Assembly: GCA_015062605.1 (NCBI GenBank)
Contig: SUUI01000002.1
Span: 62,001 to 126,000, forward strand
From: Eggerthellaceae bacterium
Lineage (GTDB): Bacteria > Actinomycetota > Coriobacteriia > Coriobacteriales > Eggerthellaceae
Direction: 5' to 3'
Length of the DNA: 64,000 nt
Shown here: one piece after another, positions 21,441-62,242 of the stretch
How the letters are laid out: each line of letters starts with the position of its first letter
Position numbering within the stretch: position 1 is the first letter of the stretch
Translations under genes and position numbers: made by a program
Notes under the pieces: generated by a model
Database searches by the model: none
Told to the model about the DNA's origin: nothing
What the model saw: the letters and a program-made list of their open reading frames with translations, nothing else

Positions 21441-24400
21441 TTACGCTACTTCGTAGTCCTCCTCGCGCATGCGGCGACGAGCAACCACGAGTGCGAGCAG
21501 CGACAACAGCGATGCGCCACCCAGCACGCCCGCGGTGGTGCCGCGGTCATCGCCGGTCTGCGGCAGCACAGGCTTCTCAGCGTTCTTCGCCCACTCAGCC
21601 GTGAAGGTATGGTCACCTTCAACCTTGTAGGTGTCGCCCGGCTGATACTCAGAGCCACGCCAGTACAGGAACGTGTAACCGGTACGCGTCGGAGCCTCAA
21701 TGATCGTGAAGTCGCGGTCGGCCTCCTTGCCTACCGTAACCGGAATTTCGAGGACGTCGGTGCTGCCGCGCAGGATGCCACCGTTCGGATCGAACTTAAG
21801 CGTGTACTCTGCCGGATTGATAGTGAAGGTGCCATCCTTGACGGTGACTGTGTAGTTCAGGTTCTCAACCGTTGCCTTTGCGGTGATGGCGTACTCGCCA
21901 GCATCCTGGCCTTCCTCACGGCTCACTTCGATGCCAAGAACCTCAGTGGGATCCTCGCCCTCAACAACGCCTTCAATCACATAGGTGAGCTCGGGGTCAG
22001 TGGCCGGATTGTTGTCGTAGGTCTTGGACTGGTCGTCAATCGTCACGGTAACAGGCGCAGGCTTGATAGTGTAGCTGGTGTTAATCGTACCCTCGTAGTT
22101 GCCCTTGCCTGATACGGTCACGGTGATTTCACCGGCATCAGTGATGTCGTCACCATCCTTAGCATCAGTGTAGGTGATCTCATAATCTTCACCTGGAACG
22201 AGCGGCTTTCCGGTCACTGTGTCAGTGATGGTGACAGGCTGCTTCTGCTCCTGACCGTTGTAGGTTGTGTCCACAGGATCGGTGATTTCGAAGCGAGCGT
22301 CATCGTCGATGGAGGCCGCCGTGATGGTGAAGGTGCCGGTTTCGTACTTGACCGTGTAGTTGGTGATCGCGTCGGGGCCGGTGGCGGTCATCGTGTAGGT
22401 GGCCACGTCCTCGCCCGTCGCGCGGGTCACGGTGGCGCCGATGAGGGCCTTGACGGCCGCCTCGGTGTCGCCGTTCTGCATGCCGGTCACGGTGTAGTCG
22501 AACGGCGTCGGGTCGTCGGCGCCGTAGACCTTGGAGGCGTCAACGGGCTTGACGGTCAGCTCGGCCGCCGTGATGGTGAAGGTGCCGGTTTCGTACTTGA
22601 CCGTGTAGTTGGTGATCGCGTCGGGGCCGGTGGCGGTCATCGTGTAGGTGGCCACGTCCTCGCCCGTCGCGCGGGTCACGGTGGCGCCGATGAGGGCCTT
22701 GACGGCCGCCTCGGTGTCGCCGTTCTGCATGCCGGTCACGGTGTAGTCGAACGGCGTCGGGTCGTCGGCGCCGTAGACCTTGGAGGCGTCAACGGGCTTG
22801 ACGGTCAGCTCGGCAGGATTAATCTTAACCGTAACAGTTCCAGTCGCATGCGCTGGAAGCGGATTGCCAATCTTCTTGGCAATTGCATACCCTTCACTTG
22901 TGATGATATAGGTGGTATCGCCTGAAGTTATTTCAGTACCAGAAGCGTTCAAGAAAACCGATGCAGTTGCGGTATACGTACCCGCATTTATCGCACTCAG
23001 ATTCTTTCCGCTGATGGTCGAACCCTCGACCTTGTCTGCGAGGGACTCGGTAGCAGTAATCCCTGTACCATCGAGTGAAGCAAGCGTCTCACTGCCTGCT
23101 TTGTATGTAACGGTATAGGTCGCGGTGTGCTCTGCGCCATCAAAGGTCGCTTCGGTCGTTTCGCCAGTAACCTCAGCAGTTACGATTGGCGCCCACACGG
23201 CAAACATCGCATGGTACGGCAATGCCTCATCGGCAGCTACCTGCGTAGCAGGGTCGCCGTAATGCTCGTTTTCTTCGTCGGCGATGATATAGACAGGCTC
23301 AGCTCCAGATGTGTCATACCTCACCAGCAAATTGGCCGCGGTAAGAGCCTGTTCGTAGTTACCCTCGTCAGCCTCCCATGCTTCTGCCTGCTCTGCTGCT
23401 TCCGCGGGATCTTCGCTCGTACTGGTTGCAACGCGCGCCCAACCCAGGAAGATATACCCCTCACGCGGCTGAGGATCTTGGATGGCCACAGCTTCGTTGA
23501 TTCCTAGTGCAGGGGTTGTAGTCTTGTCGACATGGAACGCTTCTTCACCGTCATTGTTGAACCAGCTGATGTGCGTCGGAGTGGCTTCCTCTACGGCTTT
23601 GTACTTGGCACGCAGCTGGATGGTGTACGTGTGCTTCTGCACGCACAGGCTTTCCCAGCCTTCTTTCGTCTGGTCGATGACTTTGCCATTCTCATCGAGA
23701 TATTGGCCTGCGGAATTGGTGACATATACAGGATGACCATCATCATCCACTACGGCTTCGGAGCGCGCATTTGCTTCGAGTACCTCGTAGGCTTGACCGG
23801 CATAGATGACACTGCCTTTCGATCCTTCAGGAACATCAACATACTTGTTCTGGGTAGAATCCCACTTCTGCATGATCCAGTAATCGAACACGTAACCATC
23901 GGGCGGCGTCACAGCCGGAACCGCCGTTGCTTCTACGTTATCTTTGTATAGTTTCTTGTCCTCAGCAATTCCGCTTCCAGTTTCGTCAACATCGGAATCG
24001 TACAGGCTATAGAGAACGCCGATGCCATCGGCACCGTCAAGCGTCTTGCTCCATTTCGCATAGAGGTTAAGCTCCCTGGTAATCCAGAAACGATCCTTGC
24101 CTGGAGTCTCCGGATTATGATCGTCATCCCAACCGGTGATATCGGAGTTCGACGTTGCGCCGTTGCCCCATTTGTCCATCGGATCAGTCATGTGGGTCGT
24201 CTTGTCGTACGACGTCGTTACCGTGCTATCGGTCAGGAGGGTCGTCTCGGCCTTGAACATATGCGTTTTAGCCTCATCGCTATACCAGCCGATGAACTTA
24301 TAGCCATTGCGCATACCGGTTGGAGCACTAACGCGATCGCCATAGCTGACACGGAAGTTCATTTGCTGGCTTCCCGAGCCCCAATCAAGCGTTGAATCAC

Positions 24401-27400
24401 CGTCCGCATCGGGATGAAGGAACACGCGGTATTGGATCTGCCGCCATTTGGCGTAAACCGTCATGCCGCCTTCGGGCATGGTGGTGAAGGTGTACGGCGT
24501 GTTGCCGGCACTATCGAGGAACCAACCTTCGAATACGTAGCCATCGGGCGTGGTCTCGGGCGTGTAGGAATTGTAGGAGGATACGTCAGCCTCATACGAA
24601 ATACCGTCGGCATGATCAATCTGACCTTGACTAGGTTGGCCAGTAATCGGATTGCCGTTGCCATCGACATAGGCACCATCCATGAAGTTGATGGTGAACG
24701 TTTGGCGCGTGTAATAGAAACGGATAGTACCGCCCGAGCCCGGATCGGCTTCCCCGTCATTGTTGAATGCAGGATCGGAACCGAGCTTCGTATAACCGGT
24801 CAAATCGATGAAGTCTTCAGCCTCGGTAAAGAAATTGTACTTTGCAGGAATCGTATTGCCATGCTTTACAAAGCTCCTACCGTTCCAAGTCCTATCCGGA
24901 GTTTGACCGGGAAGAGCCTCTACGTAGAACTCCATGTATCTTGTTCCCGCCGTGCTTGTACTAGGATAGAATGTCACATTCTCGGCGGGCATGATATCGA
25001 TATACACCAGCACCTGATTGAAGGTGCTGCTCTCTTGCGGATCCCAACGCCATTCGGAACTCGCCCCGTTATCTGTAATCGGGAAATTCTCACCTATCGG
25101 TTGTTGATACAATGCCGTGATGGTCTTATAGACTCCAGTATCCGCAGGTGGCGTATACTCAGAACTTGAAATACTAACTTGGTAATACTGATTATTATTC
25201 CACCTTGACATGCGGAGATAGCCTCCGGGAGTTACGTTTGAATCGCTACGAATCGTTCTGTTTTCCCAGACGCGATATGGATCAGCTGCGCTAGATCCAG
25301 TGCCTCGTGTAAGCTGATACCATGTCCCATTGATTTTGATATAGTAAGAATAGCCACTGCCACCATTATTCACGCGCATCAAGTCGTAACCGTCTTTTGT
25401 CGTAGTCTCGACATTGCCGCTACCGCTGTTTTCCGCTCTGAACGTCAACGTGTACTCGTTTCGGTTGTAGTACACGTTAACAACAGCGTTGTCCTCGGGA
25501 GTAATGGTGACATCCTCGTCGAATTCCGTCAAATGGAAGCCTGTGTATTGTTTACTCACGCCATTAACGCGGACGTAGGCAGAATCGCCATCACCCACTT
25601 GAGATACAGTGTTTACGGTCGTATCCGTGGTGCCCTGAAGCGTTATTGCCTCGCCGAAGTCATAGCCTGAACCGGAAATATTCTGTTTCCAGATAATGAC
25701 CGTGTAATAGGAAGGGGTCTTCGCAGTCCACTTTGCGTAGACTGTGATTCCTTCTTGGAGCTCATGACCAAAACTGAACTCATTTCCAGCGGTGCAAGCA
25801 GCGTTGGTAAACCAACCGCCGAACGTATAGCCCTTGCGTTGCATCGGAAGCAGGTTATTAACCGTCACTTCACCGGATTTGACGAATTGTGGGGCGTTAT
25901 AGGTTGCACCCTTGCCGTTCTCGTCGAAGACCAACCAATGGCCCTCAGGGGTATCGACGGAGAATTCAACATCACCTTTTATCGTGACGGTATCGCCGAG
26001 CTGATACAGAGTATCTGCGGTCCAACCCTGGATGTTTTCCTCTGGATTGCCATGCCATCCAGCAAAGCTGTGCTCATCGTCTTCGGGCACATAGCCCAAG
26101 CTTATGGTATAGGACTTCCAATCGCCTGACGTATCATCGGCGCGGAAGACAACCTGATCCTTGCCAAGCGAGGCGCCAGTTGCATCTACGTAGTTGATAT
26201 CGTATTGCTTGGCAATCATCGCGTAGTAGGTAATGACCGTGCCGCCATCGCTGCCGGCGTCGGTAACGGTATCCCAATCGATGCCAGCTACCTCAGTACG
26301 CACATCAGCGATGGTAAGAGGAGCGGTTGCGGGCTTAACGACAACCTGCTCATCTCCTTCGCCCTCAGTTATGGGAGTAAAAATGTAATCCTCATCGGTC
26401 GTCCAACCCTTGAAGATGGAAGGTGCGGTAACGGTCAGTTCAGAACTCGGATCGTAGAGAACCTGAGCAAGGATATTGGAATCGGTAATATCTTTTTTCT
26501 TGACGTACATGGTAGCAAGCGTGGAAGCAGTGCTGCCCTTGCCATTCTTGAACTCCACCTTGACGCGGGCGCCTTCGCCCTGCTCGACCACGACATAGAC
26601 AGAGAACTTATCGGAATTGAACTCCATGGTGGTAAGACCGGCCTTCTTCTCGGCAACGATCTTGCCGACAACAGCTCCGTCATCCTTCTCGTCGATATGC
26701 ACGACAACCGGGTCATCGGCGGTAAGCATGGCCCAGGATTGCATCTTCACTTTGATTGGCACGAGGGGCTCGATTTCGGCGCCCTCAGCGTTGAAGAAGG
26801 TGATATCGACAGCGGTAACGTTCTTGGCGACCTTGCCATCGGGCAGCGCGTCGGCGACGGCATCCATGATGGTGTCGTCAGCCTCGACCGGCTTGACCTT
26901 CATGGTAGCGCCTGCGGGCAGCGCGCCCACGGGAGCGGTCACGTCAACGGTAAGACCGCTGGCAGAGTCATTGAAGGCTTGAGCGGGATAGGCCTTGGCG
27001 AGCTCAGCCGCGGCTTCAGCGTCGGCAGGCTCGGTTGCCTCAGGCTCATCGGCCTCGGTTCCCTCCTCGCCTTCGTCATCCGCGTCGGCATCATCGCCGT
27101 CTTCGGTGATTGCCTCGTCATCGATTTCAACATCGTCGACGTCTTCGGCGTATTCGCCTTCATCGTCGAGCGCTTCGCCGTCGAGCGACTCGCCTACTTC
27201 GTCGGCAACCCCATCAACGGCATCAGCCGCCTCGTCGCCTTCGAGCGCATCACTCACGCCTTCCACTTCATCGATGGCTGACTCATCAACGATCTTATCG
27301 CTGATTTCCGAGGCGATGACATCCGTACCAACCTCATCGTCGGCGAATGCCATCGAGATGTTGACTGGATTCCATGCCATGAGTGAAAGGGACAACGTCA

Positions 27401-27473
27401 ACAAGGTCGCAACGATCTTGCCCTCGATTGTCTTTCCACCCTTGCCGATTCTGTCAAGTGCTCTGTTCAACAT
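21441..27473 (-). CDS. Large LPQTG-anchored surface protein with InlB-type B repeats and MBG domains
   Basis: The 2010-residue product has an N-terminal signal peptide (KIVATLLTLSLSLMAWNPVNIS near 22-43, cleavage after AFA), then an Asp/Glu-rich linker to about residue 145. Several Listeria-Bacteroides (InlB B) repeats follow, recognised by GYTFGGWFTNAA, GYVFEGWFLDSAG and GYKFIGWYSDEA each ending YAKW, roughly residues 530-1240. Near residues 1550-1720 are two identical MBG-type domains (DASKVYGADDPTPFDYTVTG), then another MBG-like region and a final B repeat. The C-terminus at 1970 is LPQTGDD, a hydrophobic stretch GVLGGASLLSLLALVVA and RRRMR, a sortase signal. An adhesin or host-contact protein is inferred. 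ATG 27473 has AGGTGG 8 bases ahead; GTG 27485 is the alternative. No sortase gene is adjacent. Confidence 0.88.
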   Translation of the reverse strand: MLNRALDRIGKGGKTIEGKIVATLLTLSLSLMAWNPVNISMAFADDEVGTDVIASEISDKIVDESAIDEVEGVSDALEGDEAADAVDGVADEVGESLDGEALDDEGEYAEDVDDVEIDDEAITEDGDDADADDEGEEGTEADEPEATEPADAEAAAELAKAYPAQAFNDSASGLTVDVTAPVGALPAGATMKVKPVEADDTIMDAVADALPDGKVAKNVTAVDITFFNAEGAEIEPLVPIKVKMQSWAMLTADDPVVVHIDEKDDGAVVGKIVAEKKAGLTTMEFNSDKFSVYVVVEQGEGARVKVEFKNGKGSTASTLATMYVKKKDITDSNILAQVLYDPSSELTVTAPSIFKGWTTDEDYIFTPITEGEGDEQVVVKPATAPLTIADVRTEVAGIDWDTVTDAGSDGGTVITYYAMIAKQYDINYVDATGASLGKDQVVFRADDTSGDWKSYTISLGYVPEDDEHSFAGWHGNPEENIQGWTADTLYQLGDTVTIKGDVEFSVDTPEGHWLVFDENGKGATYNAPQFVKSGEVTVNNLLPMQRKGYTFGGWFTNAACTAGNEFSFGHELQEGITVYAKWTAKTPSYYTVIIWKQNISGSGYDFGEAITLQGTTDTTVNTVSQVGDGDSAYVRVNGVSKQYTGFHLTEFDEDVTITPEDNAVVNVYYNRNEYTLTFRAENSGSGNVETTTKDGYDLMRVNNGGSGYSYYIKINGTWYQLTRGTGSSAADPYRVWENRTIRSDSNVTPGGYLRMSRWNNNQYYQVSISSSEYTPPADTGVYKTITALYQQPIGENFPITDNGASSEWRWDPQESSTFNQVLVYIDIMPAENVTFYPSTSTAGTRYMEFYVEALPGQTPDRTWNGRSFVKHGNTIPAKYNFFTEAEDFIDLTGYTKLGSDPAFNNDGEADPGSGGTIRFYYTRQTFTINFMDGAYVDGNGNPITGQPSQGQIDHADGISYEADVSSYNSYTPETTPDGYVFEGWFLDSAGNTPYTFTTMPEGGMTVYAKWRQIQYRVFLHPDADGDSTLDWGSGSQQMNFRVSYGDRVSAPTGMRNGYKFIGWYSDEAKTHMFKAETTLLTDSTVTTSYDKTTHMTDPMDKWGNGATSNSDITGWDDDHNPETPGKDRFWITRELNLYAKWSKTLDGADGIGVLYSLYDSDVDETGSGIAEDKKLYKDNVEATAVPAVTPPDGYVFDYWIMQKWDSTQNKYVDVPEGSKGSVIYAGQAYEVLEANARSEAVVDDDGHPVYVTNSAGQYLDENGKVIDQTKEGWESLCVQKHTYTIQLRAKYKAVEEATPTHISWFNNDGEEAFHVDKTTTPALGINEAVAIQDPQPREGYIFLGWARVATSTSEDPAEAAEQAEAWEADEGNYEQALTAANLLVRYDTSGAEPVYIIADEENEHYGDPATQVAADEALPYHAMFAVWAPIVTAEVTGETTEATFDGAEHTATYTVTYKAGSETLASLDGTGITATESLADKVEGSTISGKNLSAINAGTYTATASVFLNASGTEITSGDTTYIITSEGYAIAKKIGNPLPAHATGTVTVKINPAELTVKPVDASKVYGADDPTPFDYTVTGMQNGDTEAAVKALIGATVTRATGEDVATYTMTATGPDAITNYTVKYETGTFTITAAELTVKPVDASKVYGADDPTPFDYTVTGMQNGDTEAAVKALIGATVTRATGEDVATYTMTATGPDAITNYTVKYETGTFTITAASIDDDARFEITDPVDTTYNGQEQKQPVTITDTVTGKPLVPGEDYEITYTDAKDGDDITDAGEITVTVSGKGNYEGTINTSYTIKPAPVTVTIDDQSKTYDNNPATDPELTYVIEGVVEGEDPTEVLGIEVSREEGQDAGEYAITAKATVENLNYTVTVKDGTFTINPAEYTLKFDPNGGILRGSTDVLEIPVTVGKEADRDFTIIEAPTRTGYTFLYWRGSEYQPGDTYKVEGDHTFTAEWAKNAEKPVLPQTGDDRGTTAGVLGGASLLSLLALVVARRRMREEDYEVA
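22314..22811 (-). repeat. Exact 249-bp tandem duplication inside the surface protein gene
   Basis: Bases 22314-22562 and 22563-22811 appear identical by direct reading, each encoding the same 83-residue MBG-type domain in frame. Base composition is clearly richer in GC, with G/C-ending codons, than the flanking parts of the gene. Identity at silent sites points to a recent duplication or gene conversion. Confidence 0.9.
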
Positions 27474-27925
27474 TTCCCTTACCACCTTTTTACCGTCTAC
27501 AGCTTTGTGATCGCTTACGCAAAACTCTCTTGCAGACCTATACGCCCTGTCGATTCCACGCCCTCAAATTGTCGTTTGAGAGCCTGCAAATCTGCTTGAG
27601 CACACAGGTAGCGATACTAACCCATAGTAAAACTATTATATTCTACCATAGAATGCAGGTTTTAGGGGAAACAAATGAACGAGTTTGATTAATTGAACTT
27701 CCTGAAAAATCGCCTCGCATCAGGCATTTTCATGAGGCATGTCATTTTCAAAATGAGATGTATGTACAAAATTTCGGACTTTCTCGAAGCATCATAAAAC
27801 CTGCTGCATACGCACTCAGTTTTTATAGGAACCTCTGCAACAATTCGCACCTCGATGTGCGCATGCGCTATCGCATGCGCGCTTCCCCATAAGACATGTC
27901 GCATATCAGATTGCCAAGTGCCATA
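27474..27925. other. Long intergenic region with the surface protein leader
   Basis: No gene is supported. On the minus strand a TATAAT (27635-27640) would give a leader of about 155 bases for the surface protein gene. The leader contains CTCAAA/TTTGAG and TTGCAG/CTGCAA complementary pairs, so it may fold, but I recognise no riboswitch. Further away are a 15-bp palindrome TCATTTT-C-AAAATGA (27742-27756) and a 9-bp hairpin GCGCATGCG-CTAT-CGCATGCGC (27859-27880) without a U tract. The stretch is richer in AT than its neighbours. Confidence 0.4.
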
Positions 27926-29066: not shown

Positions 29067-30065
29067 TTACTTGAGCGCTTGCTCCACGGCGACGGCGACG
29101 GCGACGGTAGCACCGACCATCGGGTTGTTGCCCATGCCCAGATACCCCATCATCTCGACATGAGCCGGCACGCTCGAGGAGCCTGCGAACTGCGCATCGG
29201 AATGCATGCGACCCATCGTGTCGGTCATGCCATAGCTTGCAGGACCAGCCGCCATGTTATCGGGATGCAACGTGCGGCCCGTGCCGCCGCCACTCGCCAC
29301 GCTGAAGTACTTCTTACCCTGCTCGATGCACTCCTTCTTGTACGTGCCCGCAACCGGATGCTGGAAGCGCGTCGGGTTCGTGGAGTTGCCCGTGATCGAC
29401 ACATCGACGCCCTCATGATGCATGATGGCGACGCCTTCGCGCACATCATCTGCGCCGAAGCAGCGCACCCCTGCGCGCTCACCTGTTGAATACGGCACCT
29501 CGCGCACGATGGTAAGCTCGCCTGTGTAGTAGTCGAACTGCGTCTGCACGTAGGTGAACCCGTTGATGCGGCTGATGATCTGCGCCGCGTCCTTACCCAA
29601 GCCGTTCAGGATGACGCGAAGCGGCTTCTTTCTCGCCTTATTGGCGTTCTTGCAGATGCCGATGGCGCCTTCAGCAGCCGCGAAGCTCTCGTGACCTGCC
29701 AGAAACGCGAAGCACTCGGTCTCGTCGCGAAGCAGCATGGCGGCAAGATTGCCGTGGCCAAGTCCGACCTTGCGGTCATCTGCGACCGAGCCGGGAATGC
29801 AGAAGCTCTGGAGTCCGATGCCTATGGCCTCTGCGGCCTCGGCTGCAGTCGTAACACCTTTTTTGATGGCAATGGCGGCGCCCACGCAATACGCCCAGCA
29901 CACGTTCTCGAAGCAGATGGGCTGTACGCCCTTGGCGATCTCGTAAGGGTCGAAGCCCGCATCCTGGCAGATCTCTCGGCACTGCTCGATGCTGTCGATG
30001 CCATAGGTGGCGAGGACGGGCATGATCTGGTCGATGCGACGCTCGTAACTTTCAAACAAAGCCAT
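29067..30065 (-). CDS. GGGtGRT family protein
   Basis: The 332-residue protein contains the motif that names this family, SGGGTGRTLHPDNMAAG near residues 271-287, and a conserved C-terminal part MGRMHSDAQFAGSSSVPAHVEMMGYLG. Other fixed segments are CFENVCWAYCVGAAIAIKKG near 50-69 and VGLGHGNLAAMLLRDETECFAFLAGHESFAAAEGA near 99-133. No enzymatic function is established for the family. Cysteines at about 32, 50, 55, 59 and 88 are not in a ferredoxin pattern. It follows a NifU-like gene by 15 bases, a pairing often seen in anaerobes, so a role in Fe-S or metal-cluster chemistry is inferred from context only. Confidence 0.9.
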   Translation of the reverse strand: MALFESYERRIDQIMPVLATYGIDSIEQCREICQDAGFDPYEIAKGVQPICFENVCWAYCVGAAIAIKKGVTTAAEAAEAIGIGLQSFCIPGSVADDRKVGLGHGNLAAMLLRDETECFAFLAGHESFAAAEGAIGICKNANKARKKPLRVILNGLGKDAAQIISRINGFTYVQTQFDYYTGELTIVREVPYSTGERAGVRCFGADDVREGVAIMHHEGVDVSITGNSTNPTRFQHPVAGTYKKECIEQGKKYFSVASGGGTGRTLHPDNMAAGPASYGMTDTMGRMHSDAQFAGSSSVPAHVEMMGYLGMGNNPMVGATVAVAVAVEQALK

Positions 30066-30080
30066 GATATCCGTCCTTTC

Positions 30081-30773
30081 CTACTCTTGACGTGGGTCGA
30101 TGTATTTCGCGGCATCGTCGAACTGACCGTAATGGCCCTTCGCTTTCTCGAGCGCATCGTTCGCGTCCATGCCGCCCTTGATGTATTCCATCATCTTGCC
30201 CAGGTTCACGAACTCATAGCCGATGATCTCGTCATCGGCGTTAAGCGCCTGGCGCGTGATGTAGCCTTCGGTGAGGTTTAAGTAGCGCGGACCCTTGACC
30301 TTCGTGGCATAGGTCGTGCCGACCTGGCTCGAAAGGCCCTTTCCCAGATCCTCCAAGCCGCCGCCGATGACAAGTCCGCCCTCGCTAAATGCGCTTTGGC
30401 TGCGACCGTAGACGATCTGCAGGAACAGCTCGCGCATAGCGGTGTTGATAGCGTCGCATACAAGGTCGGTGTTGAGCGCCTCCAGAATCGTCTTGCCGAT
30501 CAAGATCTCGGATGCCATGGCTGCCGAATGCGTCATGCCCGAGCAGCCGATGGTCTCGACGAGCGCCTCCTCGATGATGCCGTCCTTCACGTTAAGCGTC
30601 AGCTTGCAACCGCCCTGCTGCGGTGCGCACCAGCCGATGCCGTGCGTAAATCCGCTGACGTCCTCGATTTGCTTGACTTGCACCCATTTGCCCTCTTCAG
30701 GGATGGGAGCAGGACCGTGATATGCACCCTTTGCGACGGGGCACATATGCTCTACTTCGGTTGAATAGATCAT
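30081..30773 (-). CDS. NifU_N-like iron-sulfur scaffold-related protein
   Basis: The 230-residue protein has the fold signature of IscU/NifU N-terminal scaffolds: GWCAPQQGGCKLTLNVKDGIIEEALVETIGCSGMTHSAAMASEIL near residues 47-91, with the cysteine-containing GCSGMTHS in place of the usual GCAxS. A third canonical cysteine is not obvious in the second half, so cluster binding may differ from IscU. The start is ATG 30773 with AAGGAG 7 bases ahead; the frame is open to 30842. Cytosolic. It is followed by the GGGtGRT gene and preceded by a LysR gene on the same strand; TAGAAT at 30821-30826 is a possible own promoter. Confidence 0.78.
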   Translation of the reverse strand: MIYSTEVEHMCPVAKGAYHGPAPIPEEGKWVQVKQIEDVSGFTHGIGWCAPQQGGCKLTLNVKDGIIEEALVETIGCSGMTHSAAMASEILIGKTILEALNTDLVCDAINTAMRELFLQIVYGRSQSAFSEGGLVIGGGLEDLGKGLSSQVGTTYATKVKGPRYLNLTEGYITRQALNADDEIIGYEFVNLGKMMEYIKGGMDANDALEKAKGHYGQFDDAAKYIDPRQE

Positions 30774-30890
30774 GAGGCCTCTCCTTGGTATGTAGGATTC
30801 TCGATACCTTCGATACTGCCATTCTAGCCCAAAGGCACACAACGCGGCAGCATGCGAACGATATTTCGGGCGAAAGATTTTTGAAATGTA

Positions 30891-31823
30891 TTACCGAAGC
30901 GGTGGCAGAACTGCGTTGCGGAATTCCTCGTCCGAAAACATCGTCTTCGTCGTATTGATGAAGCGGTTGAGCGCATCGGATTTATCGGATTTGCGCCAGA
31001 TGGCGCACACATCGAACTCGAGTCGTTCATCCGTTATCGGCACGAACGCCATGCCCCGCATCTCGGTGATATGAATCGCATGGCTGACAACCAGACCAAC
31101 ACCGTATCCGCGACGCGCATACATCGCGATTTCGTCCGGGTCGCTCAAGACGTCCTGCATCTTCACGTCGCTGCCGAACTCATCGGTAAGTATGCGGCTT
31201 AAGTAGTTGTAGTGCGACTCGAAATATTTGCGTGATGGCAGGATGAACGTCTCATCTGCCAGATCCGCCAAGGTAAGCGCAGCAGATTGCGCAAGCGGGT
31301 GATCCTTCGGCAGGATGACGCCATACCTATCGCCGTACAGCGCAAGCTTATCGAAGCGTGCGGGGTCATAGCCGCTCAAGTCCATATCGAAGATCAAGTC
31401 GAAGGTGCCGTTCTGCAGGTTTTGGCGCAAGATCTCGCCCTGACCACGGACGAAACGCACCTCGGCGGTCGGGTTCTCCTCCGCGAACACGCCGTACACG
31501 CCCATGATGAGACGATGCGCTGCAGCGTACAGATAGCCGACGTTGAGCTTGACAGGAGAGCTGTTCTTCATCTGGTCGACAACGCTGATGCACTTGTTGT
31601 AGGCCTCGATCACGGCGCTTGCGTTGTCTTTGAGCGCCTGGCCGATGGGCGTCAGCACGACCTGGCGGTTGTTGCGCTCGAAGACCTGGCAACCAAGCTC
31701 GCGTTCGAGCGCGCCTATGTGCTTGCTCAAGGTGGATTGGCTGATGAAGCACTTCTTCGCCGCCACCCCGAAATTCAAGGTGTTAGCAAGGCAAACGAAT
31801 TCTTCAAGCACTTCGATCTTCAT
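30891..31823 (-). CDS. LysR-family transcriptional regulator
   Basis: The 310-residue protein has a LysR winged-helix N-terminus: EVLEEFVCLANTLNFGVAAKKCFISQSTLSKHIGALERELGCQVFERN over residues 3-50, then a two-lobe effector domain (KLNVGYLYAAAHRLIMG, FDLIFDMDLSG, YGVGLVV). It likely binds a small aromatic or organic acid effector, but which one is unknown. ATG 31823 (MKIEVLEEF) fits the family start. It sits between the NifU-like pair and the molybdoenzyme operon and could control either; all are on the minus strand. Confidence 0.9.
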   Translation of the reverse strand: MKIEVLEEFVCLANTLNFGVAAKKCFISQSTLSKHIGALERELGCQVFERNNRQVVLTPIGQALKDNASAVIEAYNKCISVVDQMKNSSPVKLNVGYLYAAAHRLIMGVYGVFAEENPTAEVRFVRGQGEILRQNLQNGTFDLIFDMDLSGYDPARFDKLALYGDRYGVILPKDHPLAQSAALTLADLADETFILPSRKYFESHYNYLSRILTDEFGSDVKMQDVLSDPDEIAMYARRGYGVGLVVSHAIHITEMRGMAFVPITDERLEFDVCAIWRKSDKSDALNRFINTTKTMFSDEEFRNAVLPPLR

Positions 31824-31901
31824 GTGATGCACCATTTGAGAGAAAAGCGGTCGCGCAGGTGCAATTCTATGGGAAACAAACGAACTGTCAAGCGCGGCGC
31901 A

Positions 31902-31927
31902 AGAAGCCCTGAAGCTGCATCAGGCTT
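31902..31927 (-). terminator. Possible terminator at the end of the molybdoenzyme operon
   Basis: On the minus strand GAAGCC-TGA pairs with TCA-(G)-GGCTTC, followed by TTGCG. It overlaps the last codons of the preceding small gene. The U tract is poor. Confidence 0.45.
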
Positions 31928-32234
31928 CGTCGGGATGAGGAATCGGCACGCTGCGCGAGGGACAGGTTTCGCTCTCGGTGTTCTCTATGGGGTCTTGGTT
32001 CGCCTGCGCGCAGGGATTGCCGCAGTCGATCTGATAGCGTCCGCAGAATTTCGCGCGCGGGACGGTCGACCACGTGAGGTCGCATCCGCACTTCGCGCAC
32101 GATCGCGGCTCGGGGTCAGGTGTCATCTGGTAGTCGAAAACGGCGATGGTTCCGCAATCGGGGCAGGTCACACCCACCATGCGCGGCGGCGTGCATTTGC
32201 CACACAGCGGATTGCATGACCAGCACAGCGCCAT
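31920..32234 (-). CDS. Small cysteine-rich (zinc-ribbon-like) protein, last gene of the molybdoenzyme operon
   Basis: The 104-residue protein has ten or more cysteines arranged as CWSCNPLCGKC (residues 4-14), CPDCG (24-28), CAKCGC (about 46-51), CGRYQIDCGNPC (about 64-75) and a single Cys in ETCPSRS. The CxxC pairs look like zinc knuckles or rubredoxin-like sites. I do not recognise a family. The ATG at 32234 is 4 bases after the stop of the gene before it, and the reading frame open upstream to 32495 is only chance extension. Its place after a molybdopterin catalytic subunit and an Fe-S subunit suggests an assembly, electron-transfer or regulatory role. Confidence 0.7.
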   Translation of the reverse strand: MALCWSCNPLCGKCTPPRMVGVTCPDCGTIAVFDYQMTPDPEPRSCAKCGCDLTWSTVPRAKFCGRYQIDCGNPCAQANQDPIENTESETCPSRSVPIPHPDEA

Positions 32235-32238
32235 CTTA

Positions 32239-32580
32239 CTAAGCCTCGGTCCCCTCGTCGTCGGGAACGATCTTGCCGTCCTTGATCTTGATCTTTTTGA
32301 GCGGCAGACCGGCGATATCAGTGCCTTCGCCCCCGTGGGCCGCACCGCCGCCGTAGATGAGGCCCGATGGGTCATAGCCTTCTTGGAAGCCCGGGCCATC
32401 GGTCGGATAGCTGATATAGCGGAGCTTGATGTTCGTGCTCGAGCAGCTCGTGCATACGGCCGCATCCACCTCTTCCTTGGGACCAGAGACGACAAACTCG
32501 ATCTCGCAGTCGAGGCAGCGCATGGTGTATTCGGGATAGGTGTTCCACCCGGGAATGTAATGGCCGTTCGTTTCCGTCAT
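32239..32580 (-). CDS. Small CxxC-pair protein in the molybdoenzyme operon
   Basis: The 113-residue protein starts TETNGHYIPGWNTYPEY, then has two cysteine pairs, MRCLDCEIEF near residue 21 and AVCTSCSSTN near 43, consistent with one four-Cys zinc ribbon. The C-terminal half is Gly-rich (SGLIYGGGAAHGGEGTDIAG) and ends acidic (KIVPDDEGTEA). No family recognised. Two ATGs lie in tandem; 32580 has AAGGAG at 7 bases, 32583 at 4. It follows two strong hairpins that separate it from the Fe-S subunit gene and is followed closely by another Cys-rich gene. Confidence 0.7.
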   Translation of the reverse strand: MTETNGHYIPGWNTYPEYTMRCLDCEIEFVVSGPKEEVDAAVCTSCSSTNIKLRYISYPTDGPGFQEGYDPSGLIYGGGAAHGGEGTDIAGLPLKKIKIKDGKIVPDDEGTEA

Positions 32581-32629
32581 CATCTATCTCCTTCGCTATC
32601 CTTCTTAAGATCATCTTATTTTGCAAGAA

Positions 32630-32661
32630 GGAGTGGACATGATACCACACATGCCCACTCC
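32630..32661 (-). terminator. Intra-operon hairpin, probable partial terminator
   Basis: Arms GGAGTGGACATG / CATGCCCACTCC (12 bp, one wobble) with an 8-base loop; on the minus strand TTCTTGCAAAAT follows. It lies between the Fe-S subunit gene and the two small Cys-rich genes and would lower their expression. Confidence 0.55.
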
Positions 32662-32688
32662 CCTTATCTCGAACGTACGGCAGTATCG

Positions 32689-32718
32689 CCGTGCAGGGAG
32701 CAAATCCTCCCCGCACGG
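32689..32718 (-). other. Second intra-operon hairpin
   Basis: CCGTGC-AGGGAG and CTCCCC-GCACGG pair over 12 bp with one wobble around CAAATC. It begins 16 bases after the Fe-S subunit stop, with no U tract. It may stabilise the upstream mRNA end. Confidence 0.5.
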
Positions 32719-32733
32719 TCAACACCAAAGTAC

Positions 32734-33069
32734 TTACTTCGTAATGATGTAGGTCTTGCCCTCGGCTTCCTCAGCCTTCTTGGCCAGCTCCTCGATCGTG
32801 CCGTATTCCATGCAGAATGCCAGGCAGTGATGCACGCATGCCGGCTTCTTGCCAGCGGCGACGCGATCCTCGCAGAAGTTGCAGAGCGTGGTCAGGATAG
32901 GAGCGTAGTCGAAGTTCCACGTACGCTCATCAATCTGGAAAGGACCGATCTGCTCAAGCTTGATGCCCCACTCGCCTAAACCCAGACCGAGCTCGTTACG
33001 GCATGCGATTTCGCAGCTATGGCAGCCAGTGCAATACTCGTAATTGATAAGCAATGCTTTCTTGCTCAT
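32734..33069 (-). CDS. 4Fe-4S electron-transfer subunit of a molybdopterin oxidoreductase
   Basis: The 111-residue protein has cysteine sets CTGCHSCEIACR (residues 13-24) and, further on, CNFCEDRVAAGKKPACVHHC near 63-82 plus Cys in AFCMEYG. This is a shortened version of the DmsB/NrfC-type Fe-S subunits, enough for about two clusters. No signal peptide or membrane helix, so it is cytosolic like its partner. The gene lies 24 bases after the catalytic subunit gene. It likely passes electrons from ferredoxin or a reductase to the molybdenum cofactor. Confidence 0.85.
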   Translation of the reverse strand: MSKKALLINYEYCTGCHSCEIACRNELGLGLGEWGIKLEQIGPFQIDERTWNFDYAPILTTLCNFCEDRVAAGKKPACVHHCLAFCMEYGTIEELAKKAEEAEGKTYIITK

Positions 33070-33093
33070 GTTCTCTCCTCCTTCGCTGTTCCT

Positions 33094-35337
33094 CTAGCCG
33101 TCGAGCCCTTGGGCCTTGTAGATCTTGCACATCATGCACTTATGGATGGAGCCGAAGCCCAGCTTGTTCGTGCAGAAGTGCGGAAGCAGCATGTTGATGT
33201 TGGACTTCCAGACACCGTACAGGTTCGGCTCTGCGCCCTCCTGCTCCGGATACCACCAACCATGCTCGCAGTGGACGACGCCCTCGAGGATGGACGGCGT
33301 GACCCAGCACTTCATCTGGCACTTGCCGAGCCAGTTCTCGATGGTGACCCAGTCGCCATCCTGGATACCGTACTTCTCGGCATCGGCAGGATGGATGGTG
33401 ATCTTGGCCCACGGATCGATCTCGCGCAAAGTGGCGATCATGCGATGCTCGGAGTGGAACGACGTGTACTTGCGACCGCCGGTGGTGAGGATGAGCGGAT
33501 ACTCCTCGGCCAAATCAGGATTGCGGACCGGGCTGTAGTGCGGCTCATCGTAGTACGGCAGCGGATCCTCGCCCCACATCGTGTACATGAGCGAGAACAG
33601 CTCGACACGGCCGGAAGGCGTATTGAAGCCGGGCTTTCCATCGCCGCGGAGCAGACCGCTTGCATACTTCCTGTAGTTGTACTCGGCCTGATACACGCCC
33701 ATGCGGCGGAGATCATCGAAGCCGAAGTCATAGGAAGCGCGGATCTGCTTGTCGAAGAAGTCGGCAGCATCCTTGTAGTCCCATGCCTCGGGGTTCGTGC
33801 GCTTGCCGATGTTGATGCACATCTCGATGTCGGAATGGACGCCAGGATTGTCGATGGCCTTGTTCATCGCGCCGATGAAGTGCGGGTTGCGGCCGAAGTG
33901 CGGCAACGCGACGCCATCATGCTCGGGGAAGGTCGCAATGGGCAGGAACAAATCGCCCAGGGCAACTGCCGACGGGGTCATGAACAGGTCGGTGACAACC
34001 GTGAATTCCATCTTCTGCAACGCCTTGTACCAACGCTGAGGCTGGACGTTGTTCGATGCGGAGATGATGTTGGAGCTCTGCAGATAGAGCATGCGGATGA
34101 TCTGCGGATCATCGTTCTCGATGCTCTCGAGAACGACGTCGGGCTGGCAGACCCACTGAGCGGCCGCGAAGGCCGGGAACTGCTTGGCACCGAGGCGGTT
34201 CTCGAACTGGCCGGGCTGCAGGTTCGAACGCGTATCAACGCGCCACTTGCCCAAGAACGTGGACGGCTGGCCGACGGTAACGCCGCCGGGAACGTCAACG
34301 TAACCGCAGATGGCGAGCATGGCGAGCACGGCATGGCCGGCCTGACCACCAGTGGAGATGGCGTCGAACGTGAGGCCCCACAGAATGGAGGACGGCTTGG
34401 ATGTCGCGAACTTGCGGGCAGCCTCGATGATGAGCTCCTCGGGAACCCAGGTGATCTCGGAAGCACGTGACGGCGGATACTCATGGCAGCGCTCTGCGAA
34501 CTGCTCGAAGCCGTAGCACCAATTCTCAACGAACTCATGGTCATACAGGTCCTCGGAGATGATGACGTCGAGCATCGCGAGAGCCAGAGCGGCGTCAGTG
34601 CCGGGACGCAGCTGCAACACGATATCGGCATGGGCGCCGAGCCACGTGATGCGCGGGTCGACGCAGATGATCTTCGTGCCGCGCTTCATCAAGTCAATCA
34701 GCGAGTGGCCGAAGAAGCCGTCGGGGTTACTCGTCAGCGGCATCTTGCCCCAGCTGATGACGTATTTGGGAATCTCATAGCCAGGATGATCATAGCGATC
34801 GGGATAATATGCGGCGAAGTCAAGTTCCGGATAACCGGTACCGAACACGAACTCGGCGACGGCGCAACGCGGGCCGTAGCATGCTTGGCCGGAAAGGCCC
34901 ATGAGGTTCGTGGCGGAGCGGAACACGGCGAAGCCCGTCGGAGGAGCATACAGGGCAGCCTCGCGGCCCGTGCCCTGAATGACGGCGACGGTATCCATGC
35001 CGTACTTGGCCTGGATCTCCGTGGCCTTCTGAGCGACCATATCGAAGGCCTCTTCCCACTCGATCGGCGCCCACTTGTTCTCGCCGCGCTCGCCTACGCG
35101 AACGAGCGGATGGGTGATACGTTGCGGGTGATTAAGATACTCGGGGAGCGTAAGGCAGCGAACGCAGAGACGGCCCTGTGATACAGGGTGCTCGGGATCG
35201 CCTTCGACACCGACTAGCTTGTTGTCAACCACGTGCAGGTACAAACCGCAGCTAACTGGGTGGCAACCAGGCGCGGACCAGGCACACGTCCTGACCCAAT
35301 AATCGTTATCGGACCCCCACTTCCATTCCTCCTTCAT
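33094..35337 (-). CDS. Cytosolic molybdopterin oxidoreductase, transhydroxylase/dehydroxylase-like
   Basis: The 747-residue protein is of the DMSO-reductase superfamily. N-terminal cysteines at residues 18, 25, 30, 58 and 61 (TCAWSAPGCHPVSCGL and GRLCVRC) can hold a 4Fe-4S cluster. GEQ-type cofactor segments follow: WEEAFDMVAQK near 113, SWGKMPLTSNPDGF, IICVDPRITWLGAHADIVLQLRPGTDAALALAM near 230-262, and a late TTGGRKYTSFHSEHR and HPADAEKYGIQDGDWV. There is no Tat signal, so it works in the cytoplasm. In my judgement the N-terminus resembles acetylene hydratase, pyrogallol transhydroxylase and coriobacterial catechol dehydroxylases. Extra cysteines close the C-terminus (HKCMMCK). Substrate unknown. 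First gene of the operon, with a promoter 60 bases upstream. Confidence 0.83.
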   Translation of the reverse strand: MKEEWKWGSDNDYWVRTCAWSAPGCHPVSCGLYLHVVDNKLVGVEGDPEHPVSQGRLCVRCLTLPEYLNHPQRITHPLVRVGERGENKWAPIEWEEAFDMVAQKATEIQAKYGMDTVAVIQGTGREAALYAPPTGFAVFRSATNLMGLSGQACYGPRCAVAEFVFGTGYPELDFAAYYPDRYDHPGYEIPKYVISWGKMPLTSNPDGFFGHSLIDLMKRGTKIICVDPRITWLGAHADIVLQLRPGTDAALALAMLDVIISEDLYDHEFVENWCYGFEQFAERCHEYPPSRASEITWVPEELIIEAARKFATSKPSSILWGLTFDAISTGGQAGHAVLAMLAICGYVDVPGGVTVGQPSTFLGKWRVDTRSNLQPGQFENRLGAKQFPAFAAAQWVCQPDVVLESIENDDPQIIRMLYLQSSNIISASNNVQPQRWYKALQKMEFTVVTDLFMTPSAVALGDLFLPIATFPEHDGVALPHFGRNPHFIGAMNKAIDNPGVHSDIEMCINIGKRTNPEAWDYKDAADFFDKQIRASYDFGFDDLRRMGVYQAEYNYRKYASGLLRGDGKPGFNTPSGRVELFSLMYTMWGEDPLPYYDEPHYSPVRNPDLAEEYPLILTTGGRKYTSFHSEHRMIATLREIDPWAKITIHPADAEKYGIQDGDWVTIENWLGKCQMKCWVTPSILEGVVHCEHGWWYPEQEGAEPNLYGVWKSNINMLLPHFCTNKLGFGSIHKCMMCKIYKAQGLDG

Positions 35338-35553: not shown

Positions 35554-35582
35554 AAGTGGTGCGCGAAAAACGCGCACCACTT
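35554..35582 (-). terminator. Strong terminator of the 153-residue protein gene
   Basis: Perfect 12-bp stem AAGTGGTGCGCG / CGCGCACCACTT with loop AAAAA; on the minus strand TTTTTTGTG follows at once. It lies 55 bases past the stop codon. Confidence 0.88.
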
Positions 35583-35636: not shown

Positions 35637-36098
35637 TTAGACCTCGCCTGCACCGATGAGGGCGTTGACGATATCGTACATGGCTGCGTAATAATCCTTC
35701 TCGACTGCGCAATCCTCGGGGGCACCCGTCTCAGTGGCGCCACCGGCAAGGTTCGCAAGAGCCATCTTACCGCCCTGCATCAGGGCGACAGCGCCTGCAC
35801 GGTTGATGCCATTGGCGCTTTCACCGGTGACGGAAGCGCTCAAAGCTGCCAGCATGCCCGGCACTTCGAAGTCGACGACGATCTTGTAGTAATCATCCTT
35901 ATGATCAGGATTGAAAAGGACCAGGCAGTCCTGCATGGTGCCGCCGTTATCGATCTGATCGGTTTCCCAAGCAAGTGCCACACCGAACTTCTCGGAGAAC
36001 TCAGCGGCGTGAGCCTCGAGGATCTCGATGGACATTCCCTCTGGGCCCAAAAGGCGGAACGACTTCCTGATGTTCAAAAGTTCTTCACGGTTGTACAT
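35637..36098 (-). CDS. Unrecognised 153-residue protein
   Basis: I do not recognise the family. The start is placed at ATG 36098 (MYNREELLNIRKSFRLLGPEGMS); AAGGAAGGA lies rather far upstream (about 12 bases). The sequence is soluble, with a helical N-terminus (EILEAHAAEFSEKFGVALAWE), a beta-like core (QDCLVLFNPDHKDDYYKIVVDFE) and a small-residue-rich middle (ALSASVTGESANGINRAGAVALMQGGKMALANLAGG). Two cysteines only. It ends in a strong own terminator and is separated from the molybdoenzyme operon downstream, so it is probably a monocistronic gene. Steady coding bias and RBS support it being real. A possible -10 TATACT is at 36246-36251. Confidence 0.7.
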   Translation of the reverse strand: MYNREELLNIRKSFRLLGPEGMSIEILEAHAAEFSEKFGVALAWETDQIDNGGTMQDCLVLFNPDHKDDYYKIVVDFEVPGMLAALSASVTGESANGINRAGAVALMQGGKMALANLAGGATETGAPEDCAVEKDYYAAMYDIVNALIGAGEV

Positions 36099-61711: not shown

Positions 61712-62242
61712 TTAGTTCTCCTTCCAGCCGAAGATCTGGCCAACGGAGACGCCGCGGCGGGCAGCAACCTGCTCGGGGCTCTGCATCTGCTTCAAGCCCT
61801 CTGCAGTCGCCTTCACGACGTTCATGCAGTTATCGGTGCCGAGTGACTTGGCGAACACGTCGGTGATACCTGCAAGCTCCATGACGGCACGAGCCGCTCC
61901 GCCAGCGATAACGCCGGTACCGGGAGTGGCCGGCTTGATCAGCACGCGACCGGCACCATACTCGCCGATGATCTCATGCGGGAGCGTGTGCTCTGCGGTC
62001 AGCGGAACGGTGAACATGTTCTTCTTCGCGTCCTCGACGCCCTTCTTGATAGCGATCGGCACTTCTTGGGACTTGCCCATACCGACACCGACGTGGCCAT
62101 TGCCGTCACCGACGACAACGAGCGCGGTCAGACCGAAACGACGACCGCCCTTGACAACCTTGGAAACGCGGTTGATGTAGACAACGCGCTCTTGGAGCTC
62201 GGGAGCTCCGGCGTTTTCCTGCTGCTGCTGTTTACGAGCCAT
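61712..62242 (-). CDS. rpsE: 30S ribosomal protein S5
   Basis: The 176-residue protein has the S5 double-stranded-RNA-like domain ([19 protein letters not shown] near 20-38, [21 protein letters not shown] near 42-62) and the C-terminal lobe ([27 protein letters not shown] near 99-125). It helps accuracy and assembly of the small subunit. A Gln-rich N-terminus ([13 protein letters not shown]) precedes the fold. Confidence 0.96.

Follow-up and report, generated by a model that had tools for sequence, protein, structure and literature searches.

We analysed a window of 64,000 nucleotides (positions 62,001 to 126,000 of contig SUUI01000002.1 in the Eggerthellaceae bacterium assembly GCA_015062605.1), in which a first-pass annotation had proposed a molybdoenzyme operon with an iron-sulfur (Fe-S) subunit and two small, unrecognised cysteine-rich proteins. 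All four open reading frames (ORFs) are indeed present at 31920-35337 on the minus strand, where they form a compact operon with intergenic gaps of 24, 150 and 4 bp in transcription order. They encode a catalytic subunit of 747 aa (P0004; 33094..35337), an Fe-S partner subunit of 111 aa (32734..33069), a predicted zinc-ribbon protein of 114 aa (32239..32583; 113 aa, the length first given, if the second methionine is the start) and a 104-aa protein with 13 cysteines (P0001; 31920..32234). This order is retained in two other genomes, at loci L003/L086 and L225/L199, so that three genera including that of the window share it; identities to the window proteins, in the order given above, are 77, 69, 51 and 55% at L003/L086 and 76, 77, 52 and 59% at L225/L199. 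Because the four ORFs recur in the same order at both loci, they are not chance reading frames. The close relatives of the operon come from the Eggerthellaceae and Coriobacteriaceae, and the genome of the window (1.7 Mb, 98% complete, 31 contigs) has 21 matches to molybdopterin oxidoreductase models, some of them fragments. In GC-rich loci we called genes by homology seeding, as longest-ORF calling misses the Cys-rich genes there.

P0004 contains the Molybdop_Fe4S4, Molybdopterin and Molydop_binding domains of Pfam, and its best match in the PDB, and hence the closest solved structure, is acetylene hydratase (2e7z, E 4.9e-77); transhydroxylase (pyrogallol hydroxytransferase) is absent from its 52 PDB matches. 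Cys153 of P0004 aligns with the acetylene hydratase cysteine preceding an isoleucine, the known metal ligand of that enzyme, and is conserved in every row with a residue at that position in an alignment of relatives (96 of 100). Unlike acetylene hydratase, which is a single subunit without an Fe-S partner and has the isoleucine in a hydrophobic ring beside the metal-ligand cysteine, P0004 is encoded next to an Fe-S partner; its N-terminal cluster motif is altered, and Tyr154 replaces the isoleucine. It lacks a twin-arginine translocation (TAT) signal (N-terminus MKEEWKWGSDNDYWVRTCAW), and an RR motif is likewise absent from the first 45 residues in 99 of its relatives. These sequence features identify P0004 as a predicted cytosolic bis-molybdopterin guanine dinucleotide (bis-MGD) enzyme of the acetylene-hydratase/catechol-dehydroxylase part of the family, in agreement with the initial assignment.

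The 111-aa partner has nine cysteines, two 4Fe-4S-type motifs, a match to Fer4_11 over the cut-off and partial DmsB/FdhB-like matches, and is 69-77% identical to its counterparts in L003 and L225. A soluble molybdoenzyme with a small 4Fe-4S protein is the published architecture of the Gordonibacter-type catechol dehydroxylases (PMC7028382, PMC11887054, PMC12771579), and the first-pass remark that no such enzyme is known with partners of this kind was therefore overstated. Like the window pair, these dehydroxylases (Dodh, Gp Hcdh and Eadh1-3) comprise a soluble bis-MGD subunit of about 750 aa without a TAT signal and an adjacent small 4Fe-4S protein, and, as with them, the closest characterised bis-MGD relative of P0004 outside the family is acetylene hydratase and not pyrogallol hydroxytransferase. 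An enzyme of Gordonibacter sp. 28C (L006) is 50% identical to P0004, and the relatives from 28C are among the 92 tree rows that include P0004 and are separate from acetylene hydratase. In contrast to the Gordonibacter-type operons, that of the window has a LysR and not a LuxR regulator, no adjoining major facilitator superfamily (MFS) transporter and two small Cys proteins. In its layout the pair of P0004 and the 111-aa protein matches the soluble Gordonibacter-type dehydroxylases, a likeness that does not imply a catechol substrate. A further difference is the presence of MmgE/PrpD-family genes in related loci; these adjoin enzymes of this subclade in L003, L225, L121 and L244, and may be a clue to a carboxylic-acid substrate. 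The Eggerthella lenta glucocorticoid 21-dehydroxylase genes Elen_2451-2454 were rejected as a matching operon, as they encode FdhD, a ferredoxin, a molybdopterin oxidoreductase and an SPFH protein (PMC11835702).

The 114-aa protein has two CxxC pairs followed by the motif SYPxxGPGFQEGY, which is invariant in an alignment of four homologues. It falls below the cut-off of every general zinc-ribbon model that it matches (Zn_ribbon_8, 18.3 vs 34.4 bits; HypA, 12.6 vs 28.9 bits; FmdB, 13.7 vs 31.3 bits), and is best regarded as a diverged zinc ribbon related to these models. Clear homologues are limited to loci whose enzyme shares 60-77% identity with P0004, and all four of these loci have the gene near that enzyme; weak matches elsewhere are UvrA-type zinc modules. 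The simplest reading is an accessory role specific to this enzyme subclade.

The 104-aa protein, in which ten or more cysteines had been noticed, has several CxxC pairs, and 12 of its 13 cysteines are conserved in its family. A profile of about 40 homologues contains ten invariant and further near-invariant cysteines in the pattern CWxCNPxCGxCxPP..CPxCG..CxxCG..C(x6)C(x3)C..C, which resolves into an N-terminal CWxCNPxCGxC group, a central zinc-ribbon-like module (CPxCG..CxxCG) and a C-terminal C(x6)C(x3)C..C group. P0001 has no match in Pfam, and in NCBIfam it matches only ECs_2282_CxxC, at 15.3 bits against a cut-off of 37; scattered members of the family do give low E-values, against ribbon models of several kinds, as expected of the central ribbon. 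Neither small protein matches a TorD/NarJ-type model or, as had been suspected, any known chaperone or carrier model in Pfam or NCBIfam. The 104-aa family has no model in either database. It is essentially confined to the Eggerthellales: matches at E 0.01, some of them weak, were obtained in 41 of 299 sampled Eggerthellales-level genomes, and the strict motif has 33 matches in 23 of 138 family-level genomes, with none in a reversed control. Among 296 sampled genomes of the phylum the strict motif occurs in two, both within the family of the window. Outside, two family copies were found in one Peptococcaceae metagenome-assembled genome (MAG), itself with soluble relatives of the molybdopterin oxidoreductase (MopB).

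Genomic neighbourhoods bear on the role of this family. We compared the 5 kb surroundings of 36 family genes with 40 background regions taken at even spacing from the same genomes, and found an excess of P0004-like enzymes (27/36 vs 9/40, p 8e-6), trigger factors (12/36 vs 0/40, p 4e-5) and FKBPs (8/36 vs 0/40, p 0.002) near the family genes. When the set was enlarged to 56 distinct copies, such an enzyme was within the same distance of 44, an FKBP or trigger factor of 24, and at least one of these of 50; the proposed co-occurrence with the molybdoenzyme therefore held for this family as it did for the 114-aa family. FKBP or trigger-factor genes were found near 11 of 57 enzymes without a family copy. 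The enzymes near family copies come from many different branches of the enzyme tree, with the neighbour label requiring at least five changes on starred branches in a comparison with rows that have a chaperone neighbour only. A Mantel test of the 104-aa family against the neighbouring enzyme gave r 0.82, with none of 2000 permutations as high; pairs below 60% identity show no correlation, and the test therefore demonstrates co-inheritance within subclades only.

Several of these neighbourhoods are organised as operons, with the order MopB, Fe-S, FKBP and 104-aa gene in L087 and L229, and MopB, Fe-S, a gene for an 86-aa protein, 104-aa gene and trigger factor in L110 and L228. In L093 the MopB-Fe-S pair is on one side of the FKBP and 104-aa genes, and a solute-binding ABC transporter and MoaA are on the other. 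At L168:6532-7977 a 481-aa ORF immediately following MopB and Fe-S genes fuses the N-terminal Cys motif of the family to a homologue of trigger factor. In the genome of the window, another MopB-Fe-S pair (L183) has as neighbours an FKBP gene and one for a Cys-rich protein of 74 aa. The FKBPs near the family are SlyD-like, with PDB matches spanning the insert-in-flap region, and the two that were examined (L087, L091) have no Cys-rich tail. The trigger-factor homologues are divergent, scoring below the cut-off for the housekeeping protein (122.8, 145.9 and 73.5 vs 180.2 bits). As the family usually adjoins such enzymes, and often folding helpers, the 104-aa protein probably takes part in enzyme assembly.

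The same data bear on two other explanations. One is that the two small proteins are zinc-ribbon regulators of a generic kind, or nucleic-acid- or ribosome-associated proteins, carried by chance in these loci, with the trigger-factor, EF-G and LuxR neighbours pointing to control of translation or transcription. The best weak matches of the family are the ribosomal eS27, LysW, RPAB4 and TFIIIB ribbons, LuxR genes lie near 18 of 56 copies and EF-G neighbours occur in one orthologous group. However, LuxR genes are in any case frequent in the neighbourhood of these enzymes (7/40 in the background), generic ribbons have neither the CNPxCG motif nor the eight flanking cysteines, and family copies sit inside MopB-Fe-S operons across many subclades; we accordingly regard this explanation as unlikely. 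The other holds that the small proteins deliver or buffer a metal (zinc, molybdenum or iron), or trap a substrate or product, in place of helping folding. Their Cys-rich composition, the MoaA and ABC transporter neighbours in L093 and the weak HypA similarity of the 114-aa protein would suit such a role, but every enzyme locus carries a copy of its own that goes in step with the enzyme beside it. This pattern is more like that of a client-specific helper than of a store of metal, and makes this option distinctly improbable.

A further line of evidence comes from 11 relatives of P0004 in which Cys153 is retained but the three Fe4S4 cysteines that we checked have been lost. These belong to the SYN clade (L007, L008, L009, L011, L088, L093 and L095) and the EWS clade (L108, L114 and L116), together with L021:5262-7631. 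Six of the 11 lie close to a gene of the 104-aa family, and eight lie close to an FKBP or trigger-factor gene. The "Fe-S" partner of the SYN-clade enzymes is likewise poor in cysteines, having lost its cluster ligands, and the clade nevertheless keeps the 104-aa gene (L088, L093 and L095) and usually an FKBP. These soluble enzymes may perform non-redox chemistry. As the 104-aa protein is kept where the electron path is gone, it is unlikely to be an electron carrier. That it is an extra electron-transfer subunit or carrier of the dehydroxylase, of Fe-S or rubredoxin-like type, was one of the roles offered in the first-pass annotation, and its 12 conserved cysteines could hold several metal sites, its gene is co-transcribed with that of the Fe-S subunit, and there are weak rubredoxin-like as well as zinc-ribbon matches. 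Against this, in addition to the retention beside Fe4S4-Cys-less enzymes, the link and fusion to folding factors would be unexpected of a redox subunit and the central module is nearer to zinc ribbons than to ferredoxins. The redox role has thus lost support, and we think it improbable; retention without an electron path, the fusion and the neighbours together favour maturation.

We therefore consider it somewhat probable that the operon encodes a cytosolic enzyme of two subunits and dehydroxylase layout, with the 104-aa protein as a maturation factor and the 114-aa protein as a second accessory factor. Under this proposal, electrons would pass via the small Fe-S subunit to a molybdenum site held by Cys153, at which a hydroxyl group might be reductively removed from the substrate, or a similar reaction performed. 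The 104-aa protein would bind zinc or Fe-S via its central ribbon and flanking Cys clusters and, working with SlyD-like FKBPs or trigger-factor-like chaperones, hold the new cytosolic apo-enzyme for folding and bis-MGD insertion, a task that would be the counterpart of that of TorD-type chaperones for the exported relatives. The 114-aa zinc-ribbon protein would act as a second factor limited to this subclade. In hydrogenase nickel insertion, SlyD, HypA and HypB constitute a comparable set of an FKBP chaperone and Cys-rich or zinc-ribbon partners acting on a metalloenzyme; the present system differs in that the FKBPs of L087 and L091 lack the Cys-rich tail, a separate 12-Cys protein lies beside them, and the client is a molybdoenzyme. 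More tentatively, and at somewhat less than an even chance, the 12-Cys family and the tail-less SlyD-like FKBPs or trigger-factor paralogues could constitute a maturation system, not described before and independent of TorD, that serves cytosolic bis-MGD enzymes in gut Eggerthellales; it would amount to a split SlyD with its metal-binding part as a separate protein. Small accessory proteins co-encoded with a dehydroxylase are also seen in Eggerthella lenta, where DadhD-H, including the hypothetical protein DadhE and the TorD-like DadhF, are required for Dadh activity (PMC11887054). Those proteins, however, serve TAT-exported, membrane-bound enzymes, whereas the small proteins of the window have no TorD-like match.

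Several observations weigh against this proposal. Many of the loci are orthologous, and the association counts are consequently not independent, so that the p values overstate the independence of the data. Roughly one family copy in five has no molybdoenzyme close by, and an EF-G-like gene adjoins three copies that are orthologues. The motif is absent in two genomes of the same genus (66 and 89% complete) and in a near-identical MAG. The AlphaFold2 model of the 104-aa protein, built with 5 sequences, is too weak to read (predicted local distance difference test score, pLDDT, 60), and a Foldseek search with it gave no match at E < 0.001 and no informative fold. No FKBP or trigger factor adjoins the window operon, where a chaperone partner would therefore have to act in trans. 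Finally, an adjacent 104-aa gene is lacking in the 50-55% identical relatives L004, L005, L006 and L024 and at the closest paralogue, L244.

L244 lies in the genome of the window and encodes a MopB (79% identical) and an Fe-S protein (67%) along with MmgE/PrpD, and is without all three small genes of the conserved set, those for the 114-aa and 104-aa proteins and for a 153-aa protein described below. In the enzyme tree it groups with L003 and L225, and not with the window copy. The conserved gene set seems to be split between the two copies, and the small proteins would therefore serve either both enzymes in trans or the window copy only. Of the earlier suggestion of dedicated maturation factors, the maturation role gains support for the 104-aa protein, and the qualifier holds only in part, as the family serves many enzyme subclades and L244 has neither small gene.

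Other small or unusual Cys-containing proteins occur around these loci. The 86-aa protein mentioned above has nine cysteines (WARCGGCCEC) and lies between the Fe-S gene and that for the 104-aa family or trigger-factor protein in L110:8403-8663, L168:6250-6510 and L228:4215-4475; the one copy tested has no Pfam match. L167:6445-7380, behind MopB, Fe-S and MFS-like genes, encodes a protein weakly matching Peptidase_U32, with the motif CWxCNPxCGKC at its N-terminus. A second small family, the 'MCFRPA' zinc ribbon with a Pro/Gly/Ala-rich tail, recurs beside soluble MopB genes (L018:9926-10168, L024:1036-1269, L088:8244-8522, L228:7531-7848, L229:2685-2894, L231:1128-1430 and L247:8863-9126).

The surroundings of the operon in the window add a fifth conserved gene, which had been omitted from the initially described set although the quartet itself was correctly delimited. 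This gene (35637..36098, minus strand) encodes the 153-aa protein, which has no Pfam family, has 54% identical homologues in L003 and L225, and gave an AlphaFold2 model (3 sequences) too weak to read (pLDDT 56). It lies upstream of the catalytic gene in the window and directly after the 104-aa gene in L003 and L225; the full order in L003/L086 and L225 is MopB, Fe-S, 114-aa, 104-aa, 153-aa and MmgE/PrpD, with LysR genes at the edges. In the window a Rho-independent terminator-like hairpin with a 12 bp stem and a T tract (35554..35582, minus strand) separates the 153-aa and catalytic genes, which are therefore probably on separate transcripts; it has the longest stem of four such sites, a total not above chance. 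On the other side, a LysR-type protein with Pfam HTH_1 and LysR_substrate domains (30891..31835, minus strand) is probably the regulator of the dehydroxylase-type operon, a homologue (39% identical) bordering the same operon in L003 and L225. A promoter-like site, TTGACA-16-TAGAAT, precedes its gene (31864..31891, minus strand) and has 11/12 consensus matches in a scan whose overall site count is not above chance. Downstream of the LysR gene and outside the conserved set are the paired genes for a GGGtGRT protein and a NifU-like scaffold protein (29067-30842, minus strand), and at 21441-27485 on the same strand the window encodes a repeat-rich surface protein of 2014 aa with a C-terminal LPQTG-type anchor.

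Overall, the earlier interpretation is partly supported: the enzyme is of a known type, and the accessory family is new, its proposed part in maturation having good circumstantial support. What becomes of dietary polyphenols, host catechols and other compounds is shaped by the soluble dehydroxylases of gut Coriobacteriia, enzymes that are not readily produced in standard expression systems (PMC11887054). So far as the accessible literature goes, no maturation factor has been described for them, and the 104-aa family, a conserved companion of both these enzymes and folding catalysts, is a direct candidate for the missing factor. If this is true, the family could enable heterologous expression of dehydroxylases in ordinary hosts.

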